Origin: a virus
Reading direction: 5' to 3' (one strand)
IMG/VR virus record: IMGVR_UViG_3300013132_000286
Span: 1-22,208 of that record
Length of the DNA: 22,208 nt
Shown here: piece after piece, positions 1 through 18,385 of the stretch
Layout of the letters: each line of letters begins with the position of its first letter
Numbering within the stretch: the first letter of the stretch is position 1
The notes under the pieces: generated by a model
Databases searched by the model: none
What the model was told of the DNA's origin: nothing
Seen by the model: only the letters and a program-made list of their open reading frames with translations
Made by a program: the position numbers and the translations under genes

Positions 1-764
1 AATCCAATGGTTGGCGTCATTCCATTTAAAGAAAATTTTGTGCTTTCTGTCGTTTCTTTTAATTTCTTCGCATCAAAGTCTTTAAACTTTTCTTCCATGA
101 ACTCACGAAGTTTGACTAATGGTTGTTCATCCGCATTAATTGCTGCAGTGAGTGCGTCAGTTCTCGATGATGTTGGTGCAGGACCACTAGCCATCGCTTC
201 TTTTGATGAAACCATCTTCCCGTCAGCGTTCTTGAATTTACCACCACCAGCCATTCTCGGATCAAAAGTGTAGCCTGATTTAAGAGAAGGTTTAGTCAGC
301 GCCTTCTCAATGCCACGAACCATCTTTTGAGTTTGAATTACATTACGAAGAATTAATGAAAGTGGTTTTGCGAGTTTACCTACACCACTGCTTCTATCAC
401 CTTTTTCTTTTTTATCTAATCCAAATTTTGTTCTGGCTTCTTTGATCTTTTCTGGAGATTCCATTTTCTCCAATCCAAGATCTTTCACCAAACTTCCTAA
501 ATCTCTGCCTAGCAATCCTTCGAAGAATGCAGTTCTTCTTCCCATTGTACCTTGCGTTGCAATTTTATATTCTTCAGCAACACGAGATTTGGCTTTTGCA
601 CCAGCAATGGCACCACCAATTAATCCTTTACCTTCTCTGGCTTTTGCAACTTCAGCAGCCGCGACTTTTTCAAATGCGCTCGAATCTTCTTTGCCCTTTC
701 CAATTTCTTTGAGGACACCCTTTAGAACGCCTTTGAGTATTTTACCTTGATTTGCTACTGCCAT
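1..764 (-). CDS. Probable tail tape measure protein, N-terminal 254 residues (runs off left edge)
   Basis: An open frame starts at ATG 764-762 and stays open to the left edge, so only the N-terminus is visible. It begins MAVANQGKILKGVLKGVLKE and is rich in Lys, Ala and Gly, with predicted helical stretches and a small Gly/Ala patch (GLIGGAIAGAKAK). Later it has charged helical segments such as EFMEEKFKDFDAKKLKE. I recognise no catalytic motif. The start lies 5 nt after the stop of the frameshift-accessible ORF at 770, so it is probably translationally coupled. A long gene directly downstream of a G/GT-like chaperone pair is the usual place for a tape measure, and the helix-rich composition fits. 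T4 gp29 would be the functional counterpart. The assignment rests on context and composition, not on recognised homology; another large virion protein is possible. Confidence 0.5.
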   Translation of the reverse strand, partial: MAVANQGKILKGVLKGVLKEIGKGKEDSSAFEKVAAAEVAKAREGKGLIGGAIAGAKAKSRVAEEYKIATQGTMGRRTAFFEGLLGRDLGSLVKDLGLEKMESPEKIKEARTKFGLDKKEKGDRSSGVGKLAKPLSLILRNVIQTQKMVRGIEKALTKPSLKSGYTFDPRMAGGGKFKNADGKMVSSKEAMASGPAPTSSRTDALTAAINADEQPLVKLREFMEEKFKDFDAKKLKETTESTKFSLNGMTPTIG

Positions 765-769
765 TTATT

Positions 770-967
770 TTATCTTCTACGCTGTAACTCGATCATCTTC
801 ATTTTTTCGGTCTGTTCTTTTATAAACTCTTGCAGCATCGTAACATAGATCTGCTTTTCCCACGGTATCAAATTCTCTAACTCTGTTAAAGAGTATTTGT
901 GATGCTGCATCAATGAGAAATTAGTTGTATAGTAATTTTTCAGATTATCATAACCAAAGATTAGTCG
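770..967 (-). CDS. gp51-position ORF, read by -1 frameshift from the gp26-like gene (tail assembly chaperone T-like extension)
   Basis: This frame is open from 997 to its stop TAA at 772-770. It contains no ATG, GTG or TTG in the part overlapping gp26; the first TTG/ATG pair is at 913-908 and has no clear ribosome binding site. Read after a -1 slip at 973-967 it adds 65 residues, giving a fusion of about 303 residues. The added part reads RLIFGYDNLKNYYTTNFSL, then MQHHKYSLTELENLIPWEKQ, and ends in a charged helix (EFIKEQTEKMKMIELQRRR). A compact 'YSLTELENLIPWEKQIY' helix followed by a charged tail resembles the T part of siphophage GT chaperones. T4 has gp51 (hub assembly) in this position after gp26. 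If translated alone from ATG 910 it would be 46 residues. The coding capacity is well supported; the fusion is inferred. Confidence 0.7.
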   Translation of the reverse strand, partial: RLIFGYDNLKNYYTTNFSLMQHHKYSLTELENLIPWEKQIYVTMLQEFIKEQTEKMKMIELQRRR

Positions 968-1680
968 AAAAAACTTAGAATGCCCTCCACGTTGACATTA
1001 TGTACATAGCCACATTTTCCGCATGCGAGTTCTTGTTTAAGAACTACTCGTGGGCTTGTTAAGAAAAACTGTTTGATGTTCTGCACTTGATCAATCGTCA
1101 GATTATCAAAAAAAGCCATCAGTTCTTCTTTGGTAACTTCATCCTTCTTATAAATCTGATCTTGATCATAGATGTAATCAAGATATTCTGCAATCACTTC
1201 ATAGCCACCATCTTCGAATTTGTCGTTCAATGCGGCTTCTGGGATTGTGATTGAAGGATAGTTAAACTTTGCTCCGATATTTTCGGTCAACTTCACAATA
1301 CTCGAATGACCCTCTGTATCTTCGTAAGCAATATTCTTTAGAAGAAGATCAAACTCTGTTTTGTGTTCGCATGGTTTATCTTCAACAATATTATTGCAGG
1401 TATAGATCATCTGCGCTGTTTCGCCAACAGAGTTGATTCTTAGATGAAGAAAGAACATTTCGACATCGAATGTCGGAAGATTATCGACATCAATATCATC
1501 TAAGCAGCAATTTCTAATGATCTGTTTAATTGTTGCGGCAATTTCTTTCAGATCATCTGATTCTTTCGCCATTAACAGAAGTTTTTCTTCTTTGACGAGA
1601 AATGGGCGATAGCGAACTGTCTTTTCTAAAGACTTCAGATACACTTCAAATATAGGATGTTCAATTTTTGGTAAAGGCAT
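961..1680 (-). CDS. 26: gp26-like T4 baseplate/hub protein (PF12322-type), likely tail assembly chaperone
   Basis: The protein has 239 residues (T4 gp26 has 208) and begins MPLPKIEHPIFEVYLKS, followed by the family-typical RYRPFLVKEEKLLLMAKES (residues 23-41) and a DVDNLPTFDVEMFFLHLR segment. Two Cys pairs, C95-x8-C104 and C220-x2-C223, could form a zinc ribbon. The protein ends ILSFFD. The start ATG at 1680 is preceded by GGAG at a good distance. In T4, gp26 is listed as a baseplate hub subunit and is followed by gp51, gp27, gp28 and gp29. Here it is followed by a gp51-position ORF in the -1 frame and then by a tape-measure-like gene, which suggests a G/GT-type chaperone role. Family membership is confident; the chaperone role is inference. 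Confidence 0.8.
   Translation of the reverse strand: MPLPKIEHPIFEVYLKSLEKTVRYRPFLVKEEKLLLMAKESDDLKEIAATIKQIIRNCCLDDIDVDNLPTFDVEMFFLHLRINSVGETAQMIYTCNNIVEDKPCEHKTEFDLLLKNIAYEDTEGHSSIVKLTENIGAKFNYPSITIPEAALNDKFEDGGYEVIAEYLDYIYDQDQIYKKDEVTKEELMAFFDNLTIDQVQNIKQFFLTSPRVVLKQELACGKCGYVHNVNVEGILSFFD
967..988 (-). promoter_or_regulatory. Programmed -1 frameshift signal: internal Shine-Dalgarno plus slippery heptamer
   Basis: Read on the minus strand, GGAGGG (988-983) is followed by a 9-nt spacer (982-974) and the heptamer T TTT TTC (973-967), phased X XXY YYZ on the gp26 frame. The zero frame then reads GAC and stops at TAA 963-961; the -1 frame continues for 65 codons. An upstream Shine-Dalgarno-like stimulator about 10 nt before a slippery heptamer is the layout known from E. 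coli dnaX. No start codon follows the GGAGGG at a usable distance in any sensible frame, so it is not an ordinary ribosome binding site. I see no convincing downstream stem-loop. Confidence 0.75.
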
Positions 1681-1701: not shown

Positions 1702-2427
1702 TTAATCCCAACCGCCAGTCGCACCACCACCAGCAAAGGTGCCACCCTTTCCTCTAAAATCTGATTTTCTTGGTGCTTTGTTTGTAGGCTGAGTTCCAAT
1801 TGTTAGTGGTGTTGATCCAGATGCTGGAACAACTTTTCTTGTTCCAGTAGTTTTAACTTCTTCTAATGGTTGACCAGCACTTATTTCAAGATCACCAGTG
1901 ATCCAATATTCATATCTAAATGTTACTGGAAGACGATGAATTCCATCGTCCGCCCAATTAACACTCATTGGAGCAATTGAAGTTGGGAAGGCTTCAAAAA
2001 ACGAAACACTATAAATGACTGGTGCTGAATTGCTTTGATCAGCAACTTCAGAAAATTGATTGATAATAATTTTCGGAGAAGTGTATGTTTCTTTATAATT
2101 TGGATTGTAGTTATTAATTGGAATAACTAAATTCATCCAACGATCAAATAGTTTCTTTTCCCAAAAATCACCTGAACAAACGAATGTGAGTGTTAAGTCA
2201 GCAAAAGTTGGAAAAGAAGCAACTGGATTGGCGACGCCATAATAGCGACCATCAACAGTGTTAACTGTATAGCCTGGGAGTTCAGTCGCTTCGCATTGAA
2301 ATCTTAAATCTGTTGCATCTAAACCAAGCCCTGGAGGAGCAGTGATTCTTACATCGAACTTTGAAGTTTTTGCGAAATCATTATGCTTTGCAAAGTGATC
2401 TCTAAATTGATTAACACTAAATGCCAT
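1702..2427 (-). CDS. Tail tube family protein (gp19/gp54-like, PF06841 type)
   Basis: The protein has 241 residues and begins MAFSVNQFRDHF, followed by a KFDVRITAPPGLG strand region, a CEATELPGY motif and GDFWEKKLFDRW, then a late FRYEYWITGD strand. These are the landmarks of the T4 gp19 tube-protein family in T4-like phages, which also includes the tube initiator gp54. The C-terminus (about residues 180-241) is a low-complexity tail rich in Gly, Thr and Lys that ends GGGATGGWD. T4 gp19 has 163 residues and gp54 has 320, so size does not decide between them. Its place beside gp26 and the tape-measure-like gene, away from any sheath gene, favours a gp54-like tube initiator or baseplate role. 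Its ATG overlaps the preceding stop as TAATG. Confidence 0.75.
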   Translation of the reverse strand: MAFSVNQFRDHFAKHNDFAKTSKFDVRITAPPGLGLDATDLRFQCEATELPGYTVNTVDGRYYGVANPVASFPTFADLTLTFVCSGDFWEKKLFDRWMNLVIPINNYNPNYKETYTSPKIIINQFSEVADQSNSAPVIYSVSFFEAFPTSIAPMSVNWADDGIHRLPVTFRYEYWITGDLEISAGQPLEEVKTTGTRKVVPASGSTPLTIGTQPTNKAPRKSDFRGKGGTFAGGGATGGWD

Positions 2428-2975
2428 TATTGATTATACACCATCTTTTGGAACGGAAGGAAAATCGCAGTTTCCCAGTTATTTGGCTCGACGTAAATGA
2501 CAGAGGATCGAATTTGAGTAAATAGATATCGCTTGATGCATTGCTGAATCAGATTATAGCGACGAGATTTAGACAATAAAGCATAAGACAATCTAAATTT
2601 TGTCGTATCGTCGTATTTATCGTTGTTTATGAAATCGTGCAAACGATCTAGTAGTGCTAGACGAGAATATGGATCCAAGTAATGGAGATTCAATCCCAGA
2701 AATCCATCGTCGTACATTTCCATCGGAATGACAAGAGGAAACTTATCCCAAACTGGAAGTGTATCTTTATACTTCGGATCGTAGTGATAAAGATACATTC
2801 TACCAACAAAGGCTCTTGGAGAAATGCGATTCGCATCATTTAGAACATTTGATCTATTCGTTGGCATACGAAGTGACTGAAGATTACTCGCAAGCCATGA
2901 ACGAGCCGCTGCTGTGCGAGGTTTAATTCCCGCAGAGTTGAGATCTTTTGAGACTTTATCAAATAGTGATGGCAT
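2427..2975 (-). CDS. Conserved T4-like phage protein next to gp4, candidate DNA end protector (gp2-like)
   Basis: The start was chosen at ATG 2975-2973, which overlaps the gp4 stop as TAATG with AGGA just upstream; this gives 182 residues. An upstream ATG at 3017 would add 14 residues and overlap gp4 by 43 nt, which I consider less likely. The protein is basic at its N-terminus (GIKPRTAAARSWLASN). It then has a conserved core: VGRMYLYHYDPKYKDTLPVW, DKFPLVIPMEMYDDGFLGLN and LHYLDPYSRLALLDRLHDF. I recognise this core as widespread in T4-like phages from the environment. In T4, gene 2 (DNA end protector) lies beside gene 4, so a gp2-like role is suggested by position; I cannot confirm it from motifs. 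Confidence 0.7.
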   Translation of the reverse strand: MPSLFDKVSKDLNSAGIKPRTAAARSWLASNLQSLRMPTNRSNVLNDANRISPRAFVGRMYLYHYDPKYKDTLPVWDKFPLVIPMEMYDDGFLGLNLHYLDPYSRLALLDRLHDFINNDKYDDTTKFRLSYALLSKSRRYNLIQQCIKRYLFTQIRSSVIYVEPNNWETAIFLPFQKMVYNQ

Positions 2976-3949
2976 TAGATTCCTAAATCTTTTTCTGTGA
3001 TTATCACGAATTTCCATCCTCTCTCTTTACAGTATTTATTGGCTGCAGAAAACTTCGCTGAATTTGTTCCCCATTTAGCAACTTCTGTGAGATATCTTTT
3101 AGATTTATTCGGATTTTTTATGGGTTGTGGTGCCATTGTTTCTTTCAAGGGTTTTACTTCGATCACACTAGTTTCAATTAAACCCTCTTTATTTTTACTC
3201 TTTATAACAAAGTCTGGAAAATATCTACGCAATTTGTTAGATACTGGATCGAAATATGGTATTATTAATTCCTCAGAAGCCCATTGAATAATGTTTTCAT
3301 TTTTGTCAAAATGACTCATGCACCTCAATTCCCAACTACTTCTATAGAAGATGTTGTCTGCATTTCCAGCATATTTTTCTGGATTTCTTGGTTTAAATTT
3401 TCCGTTCATATATTTCCCGCTGTTTCCAGATAATCCGTTGAGCATATTGGATAGTAATTGCTCACGACCAAGTCTATTTAATCTTTCGATTGTTTCTTGA
3501 TCGCACTTGTAATATCTACTATAAACTTCTTTTCTGCCTTGTTCGTCGAGAGAGTTGGATAAATTGATTGCAGCGATTCGAGCATTCTCAGTAATTTGTA
3601 GTTTTTGTTTATAAGTTCGTTTAGACCATATATTGCGCACTGAATTTTTAGTTCTATTCACAAATGCCTCATATTTTTCTGAGTCTTTCTTCAATTTTCG
3701 TTTATTGTAAATTGCTTGACATCTATTTCCGCAAAAAAGATTATATCCAACCCCGACGCCTCTAAATTTGGGCTCTGATCCGCATTTAAGACACGCTCCC
3801 TCGTTTGATTTTTTAAGGTATTGATCATAATACGCTTTAGAGGTATAATCATGACTCTGGCAAAAATGTTTTGCCAAGGATCTATATGAATGGTATTTGT
3901 TGCCACAGATATGACAATCTGCGGGCTGATAAATAGAATTGCTGGACAT
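2975..3949 (-). CDS. 4: Head completion protein gp4-like, with N-terminal zinc-finger extension
   Basis: The protein has 324 residues against about 150 for T4 gp4. Residues 181-324 match gp4: GKFKPRNPEKYAGN, YRSSWELR (E207), then RRYFPDF (P245-D246), SVIEVKP (E264-x-K266), then KRYLTEVAKWGTNSAKFSAA and a closing FVIITEKDLGI. This is the PD-(D/E)xK nuclease-fold signature of the head completion family. Residues 1-180 are extra: a C2H2 finger (C12-x2-C15-x12-H28-x4-H33), a C4 finger (C53-x2-C56-x16-C73-x3-C77) and a basic helical linker. This type of finger module is familiar from phage homing endonucleases. ATG at 3409-3407 (M181), preceded by GCGGGAAAT, could start a normal-length 144-residue gp4. 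It is the first gene leftward from the divergent promoter region. Confidence 0.82.
   Translation of the reverse strand: MSSNSIYQPADCHICGNKYHSYRSLAKHFCQSHDYTSKAYYDQYLKKSNEGACLKCGSEPKFRGVGVGYNLFCGNRCQAIYNKRKLKKDSEKYEAFVNRTKNSVRNIWSKRTYKQKLQITENARIAAINLSNSLDEQGRKEVYSRYYKCDQETIERLNRLGREQLLSNMLNGLSGNSGKYMNGKFKPRNPEKYAGNADNIFYRSSWELRCMSHFDKNENIIQWASEELIIPYFDPVSNKLRRYFPDFVIKSKNKEGLIETSVIEVKPLKETMAPQPIKNPNKSKRYLTEVAKWGTNSAKFSAANKYCKERGWKFVIITEKDLGI
3407..3422 (-). promoter_or_regulatory. Possible internal start (RBS plus ATG) for a standalone gp4
   Basis: On the minus strand a GCGGGAAAT stretch (purine-rich GGGAAA) lies about 7 nt upstream of ATG 3409-3407, in frame with the long gene. Initiation here would give a 144-residue product that begins exactly where similarity to T4 gp4 begins (MNGKFKP). 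The ribosome binding site is weak, so this is a hypothesis. Confidence 0.35.
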
Positions 3950-7292: not shown

Positions 7293-7538
7293 ATGAAAAA
7301 AGTATATAAATTTTCTGCAACTTGGTGTGGTCCTTGTAAGATGTTAGCAAAAACTTTATCAACTGTTGAATCTCCAATTCCGATTGAAGAAGTCGATATT
7401 GATGCAAATCCAACATTGACTCAACAGTTTAAAGTTCGTGGAGTTCCGACGCTGGTAATTGTTGATGATGATGTGGAAGTCAAAAGAAAAGTTGGTGTGA
7501 TGAGTGGACCAGAATTCTTGGAGTGGGTTAACAGTTAA
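7293..7538 (+). CDS. Small thioredoxin inside the baseplate hub operon
   Basis: The protein has 81 residues with the active site FSATWCGPCKML (C12, C15) and the cis-proline motif RGVPTLVI (P52). The order after the active-site helix is EEVDIDAN, QQFKVRGVPT and VGVMSGPEFLEW, as in thioredoxins. It lacks most of the N-terminal beta-alpha unit of E. coli thioredoxin (about 109 residues), so it is a minimal type. There is no signal peptide, so it should act in the host cytoplasm. It has an AGG-type ribosome binding site, starts two bases after the hub gene and overlaps gp5 by one base (TAATG). Being embedded between gp27-like and gp5 suggests late expression and possibly a role in folding or in redox control during tail assembly rather than DNA precursor synthesis; that role is inference. 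Confidence 0.9.
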   Translation: MKKVYKFSATWCGPCKMLAKTLSTVESPIPIEEVDIDANPTLTQQFKVRGVPTLVIVDDDVEVKRKVGVMSGPEFLEWVNS

Positions 7539-10629: not shown

Positions 10630-12699
10630 ATGGCAAATCCAGAAGCAAAACTTAAAGTCGCTGAACTTGATTTTGATGCGATTAAAACAAATCTAAAGGG
10701 ATTCCTCAAATCTCAGTCTGAGTTTAGTGATTACAACTTTGAAGGCTCAGGTATGTCTGTCCTTTTGGATATTCTTGCCTATAATACTCATTACATGGGA
10801 TATTATTTAAACATGGTATCAAACGAAATGTTCATTGATACTGCGATTAAACGTGGATCGGTTGTTTCACATGCTAAACTTTTAGGTTATGTTCCACGCT
10901 CTCGTGTTGCTGCTCGTGCTGTGATTGATTTAACAGTCACACCAGTTGCGAATGATTCGAATAGTTCAATAACAATCCCACGGTTCACTCGTTTTATTTC
11001 AGAAACAAAAGATGGCATAAACTATATTTTTGTGAATCCTTCTGCTAAAATTGTTACAAAAAATACGTCAACTGGTTTATTCAATGTTGATAATCTTGAA
11101 ATTAAAGAAGGTCAGCCAAACGCAATCACTTTCACTTATGATTCACAGACGAATCCAAAACAATATTTCGAGTTACCAGACGAAGGGATCGACACATCAA
11201 CAATTCAAGTGACTGTGCAGCGTTCTGCAGAAAATGCAAATCAAAGAAGTTATATTCTTGCACAAGATGCCACTGATGTTGATCCAGATGCATTAGTTTA
11301 TTATCTCGAAGAAAATAAAAATGGCAAGTATCAAATTTATTTTGGTGATGATGTAATTGGAAGAGCACTTACTGAAGGAAATATTGTAATCGTCAGTTAT
11401 ATCATTACATCTGGAACAACTGCGAATAATCTAAAAGAATTTAAACCTGTTGATACTATTTTAAATGGCGCAACAGTCACAGTTACTCTTGAGAGTGAAT
11501 CGACTTCAGGAGCACCAGCAGAAGATATTGAAAAAATTCGGTTCACTGCACCGAAAGCATATATCTCTCAAAATCGCGCAGTTACAAAGAATGATTATAT
11601 CGCACTAATTAATCGCGATTATCCATATTTTGAAGCAGTGAATGTTTGGGGTGGAGAAGAAAACGATCCACCTGTTTATGGAAAGGTTTTCTATACTGCA
11701 AAACCACTTGGTGGATATGAAATTACAGTGACTGAAACAAATTATATTAATGAAAAAATTCTCAAACCTTTTTCTGTTCTCACAGTAACGCCTGAATATG
11801 TTTCAGCTGATTATAATTACTTGATCATCAATGCTGACATTAATTATGATCCAACACAGACAAATAAGAGCGGCGATGAGATCAATGTTGGTATTGTCAA
11901 TACTATTAAATCATTCTGTAATCAAAATTTAGATACGTTCAATTCAACATTCAAGGTTTCACAATTAGCTCGAGCAATCGATGACTTTGATCAATCAATC
12001 ACAAGTAATGATATATCAGTTGCAATTGAAAAACGATTTACAGCAGATATCACGAGAACAACTAGTTATTCATTAGATTTTGGTACTGAATTGGTACAAG
12101 GAACAACATCACAGCGTCTTGTATCCTCTCCTTCATTTGGATATAGAGATTCAGCAGGTATTGAAAGAAATTGTTTCTTAGAAGAGGTGCTTCAATCATT
12201 TACTGGAATAGATACGATTGATGTCTTGGCACCAGGTAGTGGATATGTAAGTACACCTGATGTTATTATTGATGGTGACGGAACAGGTGCATCTGCTCGA
12301 GCATTGATTGTTAATGGGTCAGTTAAGAGAGTAGAGGTTGTAAATCCTGGTTCTGGCTACACTTCGGCTAGTGTGACAATATCTGGTGGTGGAAGCGCTG
12401 GTGCAACTGCAAGAATTAATCTTCAGGGAAGAAATGGAAAATTGCGCATTTATTACTTTGATACCAACAACATTAAGAAAACAATAACCGATGACGCAGG
12501 AACCATAGACTATCTTAATGGTATCGTAAATTTAAATAATTTCTCACCAACAAGCGTAGATGATCCGTTTGAAACTCTCGTGATTCGCGCTATACCACGC
12601 AAGAAAATTTTTTCTTCTGTTAGAAACAGAATCGTGACACTTGATGATACAGATCCAACATCAATAACAACAATACTAACTGCAGTGGTTGAGCCATAA
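10630..12699 (+). CDS. 6: Baseplate wedge subunit gp6 (Baseplate_J-like)
   Basis: The protein has 689 residues (T4 gp6 has 660). The N-terminus is typical: LDFDAIKTNLKGFLKSQSEF, then YNFEGSGMSVLLDILAYNTH and YLNMVSNEMFIDTAIKRGSV. The central J-like part contains ISQNRAVTKNDYIALINRDY and FEAVNVWGGEENDPP. Compared with T4 there is an extra beta module at about residues 528-600, with two GSGY units (APGSGYVSTPDVIIDGDGTG and NPGSGYTSASVTISGGGSAG). The C-terminus returns to a conserved pattern (RNRIVTLDDTDP). gp6 dimers clamp neighbouring wedges into the ring around the hub. The gene starts one base after gp25 and is followed one base later by the gp7-like start, consistent with coordinated synthesis of the gp25-gp6-gp7 core. 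Confidence 0.9.
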   Translation: MANPEAKLKVAELDFDAIKTNLKGFLKSQSEFSDYNFEGSGMSVLLDILAYNTHYMGYYLNMVSNEMFIDTAIKRGSVVSHAKLLGYVPRSRVAARAVIDLTVTPVANDSNSSITIPRFTRFISETKDGINYIFVNPSAKIVTKNTSTGLFNVDNLEIKEGQPNAITFTYDSQTNPKQYFELPDEGIDTSTIQVTVQRSAENANQRSYILAQDATDVDPDALVYYLEENKNGKYQIYFGDDVIGRALTEGNIVIVSYIITSGTTANNLKEFKPVDTILNGATVTVTLESESTSGAPAEDIEKIRFTAPKAYISQNRAVTKNDYIALINRDYPYFEAVNVWGGEENDPPVYGKVFYTAKPLGGYEITVTETNYINEKILKPFSVLTVTPEYVSADYNYLIINADINYDPTQTNKSGDEINVGIVNTIKSFCNQNLDTFNSTFKVSQLARAIDDFDQSITSNDISVAIEKRFTADITRTTSYSLDFGTELVQGTTSQRLVSSPSFGYRDSAGIERNCFLEEVLQSFTGIDTIDVLAPGSGYVSTPDVIIDGDGTGASARALIVNGSVKRVEVVNPGSGYTSASVTISGGGSAGATARINLQGRNGKLRIYYFDTNNIKKTITDDAGTIDYLNGIVNLNNFSPTSVDDPFETLVIRAIPRKKIFSSVRNRIVTLDDTDPTSITTILTAVVEP

Positions 12700-12700
12700 T

Positions 12701-15700
12701 ATGTCTGCAGCAGAGAAAACAGTTTCAGCATTAATTGAGTCGCAGCTGCCAGACTTTGTCAATGGCGATCATCCTCAATTTAAACGATTTCTTGAATTAT
12801 ATTACCAATGGATGGAACAGAATTCTGCCAATGGTATTTCAAATACTGCTGGCAATACAATCTATCACGCAATGGAAATTGAAAACTATCGTGATATTGA
12901 TCAAACACCACCAGAATTTGTTAAGTATTTTAAAGACGAAATACTTCCATTTTTCCCAGAGGGAACTTCTCTCAGCACTGAAAAAATTCTCAAATCTGCT
13001 AGAGAATTTTATAGTAAGAAAGGAAGTGATGAATCACTACGCTGGTTATTCAAAGCATTGTTCAATGAAGACATTGAAATCAACTATCCAAAAGAACAAA
13101 TTTTTATTGCTTCTGATGGTAAATGGATTCAACCAAGAGCATTTAGAATCACGGTAACTGATCAAAATAGAAGCATTGATCCAAATCTATTTGAGCGTAG
13201 ACAGGTTGTTGGTGTGAATTCTGGCGCCACTTGCGTCATTGAAAGAGCAGCGCGTTCTATTGATCCAACTAATGGTCGCGAAGTTCTTGAAATATATGTT
13301 TCAAACATTAAAAAATATTTCAATAACGGTGAATTTATCGAGATCGCATATGTTGATGAGAATGGATCAGATCAAGTTTTCCGCGAAAGAATTATCGGAA
13401 CGCTTTCAAATATTCGTGTAGATTCGAATATTCGTACAGATCCAGCGCAGCGTCGCCGAGGATTATACTACAATGTTGGCGATCCAATAGTTATTACTGG
13501 TGGTCTTGGCATCTCAGCTGAAGCGAATGATGCTGCTGCAATAGTTAATGAAATATCCCAAGGATCTATTGAAGCTGTTACAATGGGCTTCCGTGGATAT
13601 GGATATCGCACATATTCTAACTCAGAAGTGGTTGTATTGAGAAGTGTTGGTGATGATCCAAATGCAAATTCCTCTACAGATCTTCGGATTAATGCAATTA
13701 ATACAACTGCATGTACTTCGAATAGCCAAAGAAATTTTCTAGAAAAAATAACTTACGATAAGGCAGTTATCAATATTTTAGAAGACACTGTTATCAGTAC
13801 TGCTAACTACGTGCCATTTACAACAAAGACTCGAAACGTCGTGTTAAACGTAACTGAAGACGATGCTGACGACTTTTTTATCAATTATGCATTAGTGTAT
13901 GCAAACGGGAATAACTACACTGATGCTCTATTCACTGCGAAGATTGCAACTCCAAATGGACAAACTGCTATCAGTGGAACTGTTTCTTACTATGGAAATT
14001 CTGCCATAACTGGAACAATAACCGCATATGGAAACACTTCAATCACTGGAACAGTAAATGTTGCAGTTTTAAGTTATAAAGTGACTGGAAATAATACAAC
14101 CTTCACTAGTGATTTCGCAGCATACGATTATATTCGAATCATAGACCAAACTCGTCAAGTATTAAGTGTTGATAGTGATACTGAATTGACAATTGATACA
14201 CCATTCTCATATACAAGAAATGATTTGACTGCAAAGAAAGCAAACACAAACATACTTGGAAGCGGTACAACATTCACTTCATCATTAGCTGTAAATGACG
14301 TTTTGGTTGTGAATAATGAGACAGCAATTATTACAAATATTGATAACAATACATCATTAACAATTAATTATCCATTTAGTTTTTCAGATAGTGGATATAC
14401 CGCATATAAAAATAATTTCAGCACTCCATTTTCAATTGTTGGCAACGGAACCAATTTTAACATTCTAACTTCAGGTCAAAAACTTCGCGTTGGGAATGAA
14501 GATCGTGAAATTGCTAATATTGCAAATGACTTGTTTTTAAATGTGACAACTACATTTACATCAACATTCAGCGCACAAACTGCTTACAGAATCGGCAAAT
14601 TTGGAGCAAAGGGTGGATTTGGAACTGAGCAAACTGGCGATATCGTACTATATGATATCGCCAATACTGGTTCGTTGTCAGTAATTTTAAATGGGGCGCA
14701 GTTAAATGTATTACCTATTACTGATGATATATCAGTTACATCAACAACAACTCCAGACAAGTCATTCCTTGTCAACTCTATAACAACGTATCTGTTACCA
14801 TCTAATGTAAACAGCGCAATTGCACAGTGCCTCGACCTTGAAACGGTGAACACTGGCGGTATCGATGTTATCTCTGTACTCAATGGTGGCGGTGGATTTA
14901 GATCATCACCAGACCTATTAATAAGATCATTCTACGATACACAGTTATCTGAACAGTATAACTATAATTCAGAATATGGTATAAAGGCAAATACAAGACA
15001 ATTATTTAAAGATCTTGGATTGATTGCACATGTTTATATCGATAATGGTGGTTCTGAATATTCGAATAATGACATCATTAAATTTGATGGTCGTGGATAT
15101 AGTGGTGGTGGATATGTATCCGACGTTGATTCAAACGGAGCAATCAAGTCAGTTGTACTATTTGATCGTGGCGAAGGACATCTCGTAAGACCAAATGTAA
15201 TTGTTGAACGCGCTTCGCCAACGTATACAACATTGACGGGTAGTGCAAACATTGTAGCTGATAATGCAACAATAATTGGAGTAAATACTCAATTCACAGC
15301 AGATTTAAGTTTGGGAAGTACAATTAGAATTAATAATGAACTTCGCAAAGTTGCAACAGTTATTAATAATACAATTCTCAGAGTAAATACTGCATTTTTC
15401 ACTTCAGGCAATGGTAATACAGTATTTCTTCAAGATGGAATAGATGCATCACTCACTGCTTATTTGTATGGTGATGGAGAAGATTATACGATTGAAACAT
15501 CGGCAATTGGTAGAGTGAGAGACATTAGACTTCTCTATCGCGGATATGATTATGTGTCAGTTCCAAACGTATCACTTAAAGTTGTTGATGCAATTGTAAA
15601 TCCAATTGCAACTGAAGCCCCATTTACAGAGACTGAGTATATCTATCAGGGATCCTCTCTTGAAACTGCAACATTTAAGGCAAATGTAAAATACTTCAAC

Positions 15701-18385
15701 AATACAACTGGATTGTTAAGATTATACAATTATTCTGGAAGAATCGACAGAACAGTCGACCTTAAAACTGGAAATGCCATTTTCTGTAATATTAATACTT
15801 CGACGAATGTTTCAGCGCCAGAACAATATGATGCAGGTGTAATTGCAATTGGATTACCAAATCCAATGTATTATGGAAATGGTCGTGCAAGAGCAAAAGC
15901 ATTATTTGCTAATGGATTAATCGAATTTGATGGATTCTATCTAAACTCTGATGGATTCCCAAGTGCGGATAAAGTATTCCAAGATTCAGAAATATACCAT
16001 AACTTCTCATATATCGTTCAGTCTGAGAAAAATCTCGTTGACTTTGAAGTTCCAATTAAAAATATTGTTCATCCAGCTGGAATGTCTCTCATCTCTAAGA
16101 CTGTATTGAAACAGGAGGAAGATCAACAATATGTTGCTTATCCAAACGTTTCAATTATCATGCCTGGAAATGGCACAGAGGCGGTCACAGTCACGAATTC
16201 TTATTCAAATGTGGTGATAGGATTCTCAACATTCTTCAATCCACCTGTTGGAAATATAATGTATTCTAACACTCGCGTGAATGTCGGTGATTTGTTTATC
16301 ATTGAGGATGGATTTAGAAACCCAATCTCAAGAATTGTATCTGCTGTGAATAGTAATAATGAACTTGAAGTTGAAGGCAATTTCATTTACACAGGTGAAG
16401 GTAGATTGAACAGTAATGTTCAGTATGAAAATATTACTGGTAATGTTTTATTGAATCCTCCTGTAACTGGAACAGTGAATGTCAATTCACCAATTACTGG
16501 AACAATCAATTTAAATCCACTTATTGCTGGAACTGTTAATGTTGAGATATCAAATATTATTCTCACATATAATACAATCACTGGCACTGCAAGCATTGCA
16601 ACAGGAACTAACACTGTAACAGGAACGTTCCACACTTATGCTAATGGAACTGCAAGTGTTACAGGATCAGCAAATACTGTAACTGGCTCTGGCACAACTT
16701 TCGTGCTTGATCTTGAAGTTGGGGATATAATTAGGGTTAATAATGAAATTAGAAAGATTGAGAATGTTATCTCGAACACTTCGTTAAATGTTAATTCAAA
16801 TTTTGCGCAAACTGCTACCTCGCAAACACTATTCTTTGGTAATACAAAATTCTTAAATGAATTTGTTGAAGGTAGCACAATTAAGATCAATAATGAAGTG
16901 AGAGAAGTTGTTCTTGTAATTGATAATAACACACTAACTGTGAATACAAATTTTGCTACCACTGGATCTGCAAAACAAATCTATAAAAACGATGGTTATT
17001 ATACTGGCAATACTGATATTGAGCTGAGAGGAAATAACACCACATTCTTGAGTAACATTGCAGCAAATGATATAATTGTTGTTAATAATCAAGTTCGTAA
17101 AGTGATAAGTGTTGTTAACAACACCTTCTTGCTTGTCAATGATCGATTCTATCTCTCAGGAACTGATCAATCATGTTACGTCAGCTCAAACATCGTTTAT
17201 GGTAACGGGACGACGTTTGTTCTGAACGTTGCAGCAAATGATATTATTGTTGTCGACAATGTGATCAAACAAGTCGTTAATGTTACAAGCAATACACAAC
17301 TTATCGTTAATTCGATCTTCTCTAATAGTTCTAGCGATTTGATCGTCTATAAGAGAAGCAATACAGTTTATGGTACAGGAACAAACTTTGATCCACAAAT
17401 AAATGTTGGCGATATTATTACTGTGAATAATGAGATTCGTCAGGTGACAAATGTTGTATCTGATACTGAGTTAACTGTTAATAATGTATTTACTAACTAT
17501 AGCACTGGCGAATTAGTGTATAAACAAAACTCTGAGGTGCTGGGAGTTGCAACTACGTTTACAGCAGATTTGATTGTTGGTGATACTATAAATGTAAATA
17601 ATCAGGTGAGAAGAGTCACCTCAATTTCAACTGCAAATCTTCTTACTGTAAATGCTGGATTTGATTATTATGGAACTGGTAATGATATTGCTAAGATATC
17701 TAATACGATCGTGACCTTGTCTGCAAACGACGTGATTACTGGAAATAATGTTCTTGTAAGTGATAACGTAAGTTTCAACATTTTCCCATCGAATCTAATG
17801 GTCGCTCAGACAGGAACAGTTCAAATATTCACGTCAAATGGAAAGGTGATTGGAACGGGCACATTATTTACTACAGAGTTATTAGCAAACGATACAATCA
17901 TGATTGGTAATCAGGTGCGTAAAGTTGTAAATATTGCAAATAATACTATTCTAAACGTGAACCTTGGATTCTCTGCTGCAGATACTGGAGAATTATTATA
18001 TAAGAGAGCTGCTGCAATCAATGCGCAGGTTCTTTCAATAAGTGGAAACACATTATCTCTTAACGTTGCATTGAATGCAAATTTATCAAATTTAGTTTAT
18101 GTTGTCAATCCAAACTTTAGACAAATTGCGCTAGTAGGTGGAACAGTTAATACTAGCGGTAATCTTGTTGTAGCAAACACGAGTAATGCAAACACTCCAA
18201 CCAGTTTTGTGGGAACTATCTACATTGATAATGAGATTATCATTGATGGTCAAACAAAAACGGTTGTTAATGTGAATGCAAGTACCATTACTGTAAATAC
18301 AAACTGGAGTTCTCCAGGAAGTAATAAATATCTGTCTGTCTATGAAAATCATACGTTCAATGTTGTCACATTGACAGCCTATTGA
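12701..18385 (+). CDS. 7: Giant gp7-like baseplate wedge protein with repeated beta modules
   Basis: Starting at ATG 12701, just after the gp6 stop, it has 1894 residues; T4 gp7 has 1032. A TTG at 12689 would overlap gp6 and is less likely. The N-terminal 230 residues carry the conserved wedge start: IESQLPDFVNGDHPQFKRFL, LELYYQWMEQ, AREFYSKKGSDESLRWLFKA, LFNEDIEINYPKEQI and ASDGKWIQPRAFRITVT. The remainder is strand-rich and Asn/Thr/Val-rich. It contains about 12 copies of a roughly 56-residue repeat (core GTTF...VGDIIxVNNEIRKV), a block of four 10-residue repeats (1245-1284) and GGGF/GRGY-type modules near 735, 790-830 and 935-970. gp7 links the gp6/gp25 core to the outer baseplate. The repeats may extend the wedge arm or display it externally; that is inference. 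Confidence 0.85.
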   Translation: MSAAEKTVSALIESQLPDFVNGDHPQFKRFLELYYQWMEQNSANGISNTAGNTIYHAMEIENYRDIDQTPPEFVKYFKDEILPFFPEGTSLSTEKILKSAREFYSKKGSDESLRWLFKALFNEDIEINYPKEQIFIASDGKWIQPRAFRITVTDQNRSIDPNLFERRQVVGVNSGATCVIERAARSIDPTNGREVLEIYVSNIKKYFNNGEFIEIAYVDENGSDQVFRERIIGTLSNIRVDSNIRTDPAQRRRGLYYNVGDPIVITGGLGISAEANDAAAIVNEISQGSIEAVTMGFRGYGYRTYSNSEVVVLRSVGDDPNANSSTDLRINAINTTACTSNSQRNFLEKITYDKAVINILEDTVISTANYVPFTTKTRNVVLNVTEDDADDFFINYALVYANGNNYTDALFTAKIATPNGQTAISGTVSYYGNSAITGTITAYGNTSITGTVNVAVLSYKVTGNNTTFTSDFAAYDYIRIIDQTRQVLSVDSDTELTIDTPFSYTRNDLTAKKANTNILGSGTTFTSSLAVNDVLVVNNETAIITNIDNNTSLTINYPFSFSDSGYTAYKNNFSTPFSIVGNGTNFNILTSGQKLRVGNEDREIANIANDLFLNVTTTFTSTFSAQTAYRIGKFGAKGGFGTEQTGDIVLYDIANTGSLSVILNGAQLNVLPITDDISVTSTTTPDKSFLVNSITTYLLPSNVNSAIAQCLDLETVNTGGIDVISVLNGGGGFRSSPDLLIRSFYDTQLSEQYNYNSEYGIKANTRQLFKDLGLIAHVYIDNGGSEYSNNDIIKFDGRGYSGGGYVSDVDSNGAIKSVVLFDRGEGHLVRPNVIVERASPTYTTLTGSANIVADNATIIGVNTQFTADLSLGSTIRINNELRKVATVINNTILRVNTAFFTSGNGNTVFLQDGIDASLTAYLYGDGEDYTIETSAIGRVRDIRLLYRGYDYVSVPNVSLKVVDAIVNPIATEAPFTETEYIYQGSSLETATFKANVKYFNNTTGLLRLYNYSGRIDRTVDLKTGNAIFCNINTSTNVSAPEQYDAGVIAIGLPNPMYYGNGRARAKALFANGLIEFDGFYLNSDGFPSADKVFQDSEIYHNFSYIVQSEKNLVDFEVPIKNIVHPAGMSLISKTVLKQEEDQQYVAYPNVSIIMPGNGTEAVTVTNSYSNVVIGFSTFFNPPVGNIMYSNTRVNVGDLFIIEDGFRNPISRIVSAVNSNNELEVEGNFIYTGEGRLNSNVQYENITGNVLLNPPVTGTVNVNSPITGTINLNPLIAGTVNVEISNIILTYNTITGTASIATGTNTVTGTFHTYANGTASVTGSANTVTGSGTTFVLDLEVGDIIRVNNEIRKIENVISNTSLNVNSNFAQTATSQTLFFGNTKFLNEFVEGSTIKINNEVREVVLVIDNNTLTVNTNFATTGSAKQIYKNDGYYTGNTDIELRGNNTTFLSNIAANDIIVVNNQVRKVISVVNNTFLLVNDRFYLSGTDQSCYVSSNIVYGNGTTFVLNVAANDIIVVDNVIKQVVNVTSNTQLIVNSIFSNSSSDLIVYKRSNTVYGTGTNFDPQINVGDIITVNNEIRQVTNVVSDTELTVNNVFTNYSTGELVYKQNSEVLGVATTFTADLIVGDTINVNNQVRRVTSISTANLLTVNAGFDYYGTGNDIAKISNTIVTLSANDVITGNNVLVSDNVSFNIFPSNLMVAQTGTVQIFTSNGKVIGTGTLFTTELLANDTIMIGNQVRKVVNIANNTILNVNLGFSAADTGELLYKRAAAINAQVLSISGNTLSLNVALNANLSNLVYVVNPNFRQIALVGGTVNTSGNLVVANTSNANTPTSFVGTIYIDNEIIIDGQTKTVVNVNASTITVNTNWSSPGSNKYLSVYENHTFNVVTLTAY
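14081..14602 (+). repeat. Beta repeats R1-R3 in the gp7-like protein
   Basis: Three consecutive copies start near 14081, 14243 and 14414 (residues 461, 515, 572). Each has the pattern G-x-x-T-x-F, then a strand, a short 'N/Y-D-x-I/L' turn, 'R/A-x-I/V', 'N-x-T/S-x-L-x-I/V' and an aromatic-rich loop. R1 and R2 are clear (GNNTTF, GSGTTF); R3 is looser. The copies differ widely at the DNA level, so they are old or strongly diversified. Confidence 0.7.
15233..15442 (+). repeat. Isolated beta repeat R4 in the gp7-like protein
   Basis: One copy of the same unit lies at residues 845-914: IIGVNTQFTADLSLGSTIRI, NNELRKVATVINNTILRVNT, then an FF loop. It lies between GRGY-type modules, showing that the two module types are interleaved. 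Confidence 0.7.
16433..16552 (+). repeat. Four tandem 30-bp coding repeats (10 residues each)
   Basis: Residues 1245-1284 read ITGNVLLNPP, VTGTVNVNSP, ITGTINLNPL and IAGTVNVEIS: four units of exactly 10 residues with the pattern (I/V)-(T/A)-G-(T/N)-(V/I)-x-(V/L)-x-x-x. Related ITGT/VTGT text continues irregularly to about 16690, and a shorter set lies at about 13970-14060. A 10-residue strand-turn period is typical of fibrous beta structures in phage fibres. Confidence 0.8.
16652..18007 (+). repeat. Tandem array of ~56-residue beta repeats R5-R11 in the gp7-like protein
   Basis: Copies begin near 16652, 16841, 16988, 17189, 17360, 17528 and 17837 (residues 1318-1769). R8, R9 and R10 follow one another at 57 and 56 codons. 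The core consensus is Y/T-G-x-G-T-x-F, L-x-V/A-G/N-D-I-I-x-V-N-N-x-V/I-R-K/Q-V, x-x-V-x-S/N-x-T-x-L-x-V-N and a loop ending in Y-K. A degenerate twelfth copy follows at about 18136-18352. The frame is uninterrupted throughout. Confidence 0.85.

Follow-up and report, generated by a model that had tools for sequence, protein, structure and literature searches.

Does the junction between a T4 gp26-like gene and the small gp51-like reading frame behind it separate two hub proteins, or does it yield a short and a long form of one tail assembly chaperone? The question is raised by a stretch of viral DNA of 22,208 nucleotides, referred to here as the window. A preliminary description of this DNA had claimed that the gp26 and gp51 genes of the lineage are chaperones of the λ G/GT type. 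This claim is borne out by conservation of the slip site, constraint on the -1 frame, lack of a usable start, synteny, and a match of the two parts together to T4 gp51 as against the first part alone to T4 gp26. We consider it highly probable that the locus is a two-form tail assembly chaperone made by programmed -1 frameshifting of the λ G/GT type.

Anatomy of the junction

The features concerned, with the evidence for each in brackets, all lie on the minus strand:

1702..2427, minus strand: tail-tube-like gene preceding gp26 (match to phrog_45, tail tube, at E 2.7e-36)
961..1680, minus strand: gp26-like gene, 239 aa, putative short tail assembly chaperone (TAC-N), zero frame (PF12322, phrog_150, T4 gp26 profile match)
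983..988, minus strand: internal Shine-Dalgarno (SD)-like element GGAGGG (-9.8 kcal/mol with the anti-SD; exceeds synonymous expectation; spacing tracks the heptamer)
967..973, minus strand: in-phase candidate slippery heptamer T_TTT_TTC (94 of 99 non-redundant relatives keep T_TTT_TTN in this phase)
961..963, minus strand: zero-frame stop TAA, ending the short form (sequence)
770..967, minus strand: -1 extension, 65 codons plus stop, putative TAC-C with a gp51-like C domain (phrog_634, phrog_150 235-278, pN/pS 0.12, T4 gp51 C-terminus)
3..764, minus strand: start of a tape-measure-like gene, which runs off the window (position, size, hydrolase domain and annotation in relatives)

The gp26 reading frame ends with GTG GAG GGC ATT CTA AGT TTT TTC GAC TAA. 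The element GGAGGG is followed by a spacer of 9 nt, CATTCTAAG (982..974), and then by T_TTT_TTC (973..967) in the phase X_XXY_YYZ, exactly to the base as the preliminary description had it. A single sense codon (GAC) stands between the heptamer and the stop TAA, which is thus the second codon after the heptamer, again as described. The -1 frame is open from upstream of the heptamer; its 65 codons occupy 967..773, its TAA lies at 772..770, and its translation read from the heptamer is FFRLIFGYDNLKNYYTTNFSLMQHHKYSLTELENLIPWEKQIYVTMLQEFIKEQTEKMKMIELQRRR. The next ATG, at 764, comes 5 nt past the end of this ORF, so that the extent claimed for the -1 frame holds as well. Joined to gp26 residues 1-238, the -1 extension would give a long form of 303 aa. 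Folding of the downstream RNA revealed no 3' structure that might serve as a stimulator.

The heptamer by itself is no evidence. TTTTTTC is common in this AT-rich DNA (12 occurrences in the window against 13.9 expected), and the case for frameshifting therefore rests on comparison: the significance of the heptamer stems from its phase, its position and, above all, its conservation. A chance heptamer was ruled out, since phase and conservation are enriched even though TTTTTTC alone is not.

The order of genes is tail-tube-like gene, gp26 (TAC-N), -1 ORF (TAC-C) and tape-measure-like gene; the order V-G-T-H in λ equals tube, TAC-N, TAC-C and tape measure. The window's fragment of the downstream gene gave no direct family match in searches of PF and PHROG profiles. 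In relatives, the downstream protein is about 900 aa long with a VanY or GH19 hydrolase domain in its middle, and the syntenic gene is elsewhere annotated as tape measure or lysozyme; this context is consistent with a tape measure gene. Where two relatives (L001 and L006) have a VanY peptidase as the hydrolase domain, a third (L022) has a GH19 domain, a cell-wall hydrolase swap within otherwise related tape-measure-like proteins.

Other parts of the window hold features of separate interest. An 81-aa thioredoxin-like gene (7293-7538, plus strand) lies in the baseplate cluster, between the genes for a tail protein and a gp5-like hub lysozyme. In the 324-aa protein encoded at 2975-3949 (minus strand), a gp4-like head closure domain takes up the last 145 residues only, and the first 178 residues include Cys/His-rich motifs. 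A wedge- or fibre-like protein of 1898 aa (12689-18385, plus strand) contains many repeats of the type VNNEIRKV...NNTxLTVN.

Conservation of the slip site, the upstream element and the -1 frame

Metagenomic virus contigs and 16 isolate phages provided, together with the window, 128 usable gp26 genes, and removal of sequences with at least 90% amino acid identity left 99 non-redundant ones. In this comparison of relatives, which the preliminary description had proposed, an in-phase T_TTT_TTN near the gp26 stop is kept in 94 of the 99, whereas codon usage alone would be expected to give T|TTT in about 43%. The third codon of the heptamer is TTC in 71, TTT in 20 and TTA in 3. Conditional on having the heptamer, the first Phe codon is TTT in 94 of 94 (69% expected), and the codon preceding Phe-Phe, which specifies Ser, Asp, Asn or Gly, ends in T in 94 of 94 (61% expected). 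The distance from heptamer to stop is 10 nt in 82 sequences and 7, 16, 31 or 34 nt elsewhere.

The SD-like element is also a common property of these genes. Because the peptide E-G encoded there is itself conserved, the test that we applied concerns codon choice and not the presence of E-G. Across the 94 sequences, pairing with the anti-SD upstream of the heptamer averages -7.1 kcal/mol as against a synonymous expectation of -5.1 (p 3e-11); the same test on 50 lineages less than 60% identical gives p 5e-6, both p-values being indicative only, owing to residual relatedness of the sequences. Control windows in the same genes yield z near 0. Most sequences have 9 nt between SD core and heptamer, and this interval remains at 8-9 nt for stops 7, 10, 16 or 31 nt past the heptamer alike; the element thus follows the slip site and not the terminator. 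At -9.8 kcal/mol, the window's GGAGGG is stronger than any of 15 initiation sites that were tested in the window, the best of which reaches -6.0. Its 9-nt spacing falls within the 9-14 nt published for stimulation of -1 shifts (PMC5009743). The SD is weak or absent in 15 of the 94 relatives, L031 and L032 included. These comparisons, namely a pairing stronger than the synonymous expectation and a spacing that tracks the heptamer, argue that the internal SD probably stimulates slippage, in line with the dnaX-like stimulation suggested beforehand.

The -1 ORF evolves as a protein. A comparison of 13 sequences from the window's clade gave pS 0.758 and pN 0.089 (pN/pS 0.12) for the -1 frame, and the other two frames lack a comparable pattern. 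Codons 5-25, upstream of the first in-frame ATG in the window, are equally constrained. A start preceded by an SD within 8 codons of the heptamer was seen in only 2 of the 94 relatives and in none of the other 92, and close to where the conserved stretch begins, the window and most relatives have no ATG, GTG or TTG preceded by an SD. The view that the first part of this frame lacks a usable start was thus correct. An independent start for the -1 ORF was rejected on these two grounds, absence of an SD-supported start and constraint ahead of the first in-frame ATG.

Relation to T4 gp26 and gp51, and alternative readings

The window's gp26-like protein matches PF12322 (E 2.9e-57), phrog_150 (E 2.7e-63, profile positions 5-232 of 282) and, in a profile comparison with hhalign, T4 gp26 (E 3e-17); its identity to the members from cyanophages and pelagiphages is about 32-38%. 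The -1 ORF matches phrog_634, "baseplate hub assembly catalyst" (E 2.5e-25), and more weakly positions 235-278 of the 282 of phrog_150, and its C domain matches the C-terminus of T4 gp51 (hhalign, E 6e-5). The two T4 proteins are homologous to one another: gp26 matches phrog_150 over 14-235, that is, the first stretch only, and gp51 matches it over 13-280, together with phrog_634, that is, both stretches. By this criterion T4 gp51 is the long, N plus C form and T4 gp26 the short one. Compared directly with T4 gp51 by hhalign, the gp26 profile gave a short, doubtful match, whereas the PHROG comparison is clear. In the window, a single gene with a -1 step serves for both forms; judged by sequence, gp26 is very probably the short tail assembly chaperone and, with its -1 extension, the long one.

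Structure prediction adds a description of the two parts. According to AlphaFold, TAC-N (pLDDT 87) combines three helices with a beta hairpin and other beta elements, and TAC-C (pLDDT 78) is all-helical. A search of the PDB by phmmer gave no match, and a fold search of the PDB with the TAC-N and TAC-C models returned nothing significant, the match of the TAC-N model to the HK97 chaperone 2ob9 (E 3.5) included. In a viral structure library, TAC-N matched baseplate-hub, gp51-like and unnamed proteins. A CxxC zinc-ribbon-like motif lies near the gp26 C-terminus, at about 1025-1009 (minus strand), shortly upstream of the slip site; it occurs in most of the window's clade and in T4 gp26 and is absent from the aligned cyanophage and pelagiphage members.

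The 5 of 99 relatives in which the heptamer is missing are Ackermannviridae and Vibrio phages. The preliminary description had regarded relatives with a start of their own and no slip site as speaking against frameshifting. Such cases occur only in a weak form, among some Ackermannviridae and Vibrio phages, which have a TAATG overlap and no heptamer; in contrast, Kuttervirus Marshall (Salmonella) and Taipeivirus Magnus and T751 (Klebsiella) retain the -1 ORF although heptamer and start are both missing. In these three, a -1 ORF homologous to the gp51 C domain lies, unannotated, just past the gp26 stop, and the junction (ATT TTC ATT TAA) contains the tetramer T_TTC, from which tetramer frameshifting in Ackermannviridae seems plausible.

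Could the -1 ORF then be a small gene in its own right, gp51, which has GGAGGG as its ribosome binding site and is translated either by termination-reinitiation or from an independent start? Public records annotate it so, many of them giving the C domain an internal start or omitting it, and stop and start overlap as TAATG in Ds3CZ, SW16-7, VP-1, K357 and phiGrn1 and as TGATG in PhiW-14 and Mendera; the TAATG of the first four could be the start of the C domain. However, a separate gene would fit poorly with the lack of SD-supported starts in the window and most relatives, the constraint on codons before the window's first in-frame ATG, an SD whose distance is fixed to the heptamer and not to the stop, and the union of both parts in one protein in T4 gp51. 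We regard this explanation as very unlikely. In records L034-L038, of cyanophages and of Pelagibacter phages Mosig and HTVC008M, the slip site is clear, yet the gp51-like C domain is annotated as a tiny gene with an internal start or left out.

A shift arising from slippage of RNA polymerase on the T run, and not of ribosomes, would be favored by the runs of 7-9 T in 20 of the 94 relatives. Exactly six T are present in the other 74, and six T is short for transcriptional slippage; moreover, the run always lies in the phase T_TTT_TTN with an SD at the spacing for -1 shifts, neither of which transcriptional slippage needs. The constancy of phase argues for ribosomal slippage, and the part of polymerase is extremely doubtful. 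Finally, the fact that the two parts match one continuous T4 protein, gp51, might raise the suspicion of a continuous gene split by a sequencing or assembly error, but the gene is split in the same way, at this very heptamer, in 94 diverged lineages, in independent assemblies and isolate genomes, which makes an error of this kind improbable to the point of being negligible.

Proposed mechanism and known systems

From the anatomy, conservation, constraint and homology read in these sequences, we infer slippage and its rate, stimulation by the SD and chaperone action in the following way. The majority of ribosomes would halt at the TAA (963..961), releasing the short form (gp26, TAC-N). A minority would slip by -1 on T_TTT_TTC, both Phe-tRNAs re-pairing with UUU, and go on to the 303-aa long form (TAC-NC), which would end in the helical TAC-C domain. 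Slippage would probably be raised, as in dnaX, by pairing between the 16S rRNA in the elongating ribosome and the GGAGGG that lies 9 nt upstream. By analogy with λ gpG and gpGT, the N part would coat the tape measure protein, and tail tube subunits would be recruited by the C part. In T4 the same job would fall to genes 26 (N) and 51 (N plus C), which are separate.

These properties invite comparison with several known systems. The λ gpG/gpGT and P2 E/E+E' pairs likewise owe their short and long chaperones to a -1 slip immediately before the tape measure gene, a device known from long-tailed phages. The slip site of λ differs from the window's T_TTT_TTC, and to our knowledge no SD stimulator has been described for it. 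E. coli dnaX resembles the window in having an internal SD upstream of the heptamer, the window's 9 nt lying within the same 9-14 nt (PMC5009743); it differs in its heptamer, A_AAA_AAG, and its 3' stem-loop. The chaperone genes of Vandenendeviridae and Andersonviridae have a poly-T -1 site at the TAC-N 3' end and a -1 ORF before the tape measure gene, but the motif there is GTTTTT and the phage families are others (PMC12846349). In T4, too, the short form (gp26, N) is homologous to the long one (gp51, N plus C); unlike the window's, these forms come from two separate genes on opposite strands, with no frameshifting.

The closest precedent is found in the T4-like phages themselves. In a review of 2016, T4 was still given as the exception (PMC5009743). 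As cited in later papers, Vladimirov, Gautam and Davidson (2022, Virology 566:9-15) described T4-like phages that, in place of frameshifting, have one gene for the short chaperone and a fused one for the long (PMC10885494) and poly-T slip sites in the TAC-N genes of T4-like phages (PMC12846349). To the extent that these citations convey it, the arrangement is the same as ours in its genes, its poly-T -1 site in TAC-N and its position before the tape measure gene; the window differs in representing a new uncultured lineage. Chaperone frameshifting in T4-like phages is thus already published. The belief that it had gone unrecorded for T4-like gp26 fits most database annotation; it does not fit the literature, as these citations of the 2022 study indicate. 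Frameshifting reportedly appears conserved in several T4-like groups in the work of Vladimirov and colleagues, with T4 using genes 26 and 51. In the papers that we searched, we found no description of an internal SD for T4-like chaperone genes, a weak negative, and a dnaX-type internal SD in these genes may be unreported.

One could envision that in many T4-like phages a selected internal SD of the dnaX type, at a fixed 9-nt spacing and without 3' structure, drives the frameshifting of tail chaperones, that the strength of the SD sets the ratio of short to long form, and that lineages changing strategy dropped the site, the heptamer being lost in Ackermannviridae and the genes separate in T4. 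We would give this proposal about even chances. The conserved SD, with its varying strength, offers a set of natural variants on which the control of the chaperone ratio could be tested. At the level of the gene family, the present analysis settles the identity, in an uncultured lineage, of two T4-like genes long misnamed "baseplate hub" and "hub assembly catalyst". Among the relatives found, the predicted frameshift is the usual arrangement and the two-gene solution of T4 is the exception.
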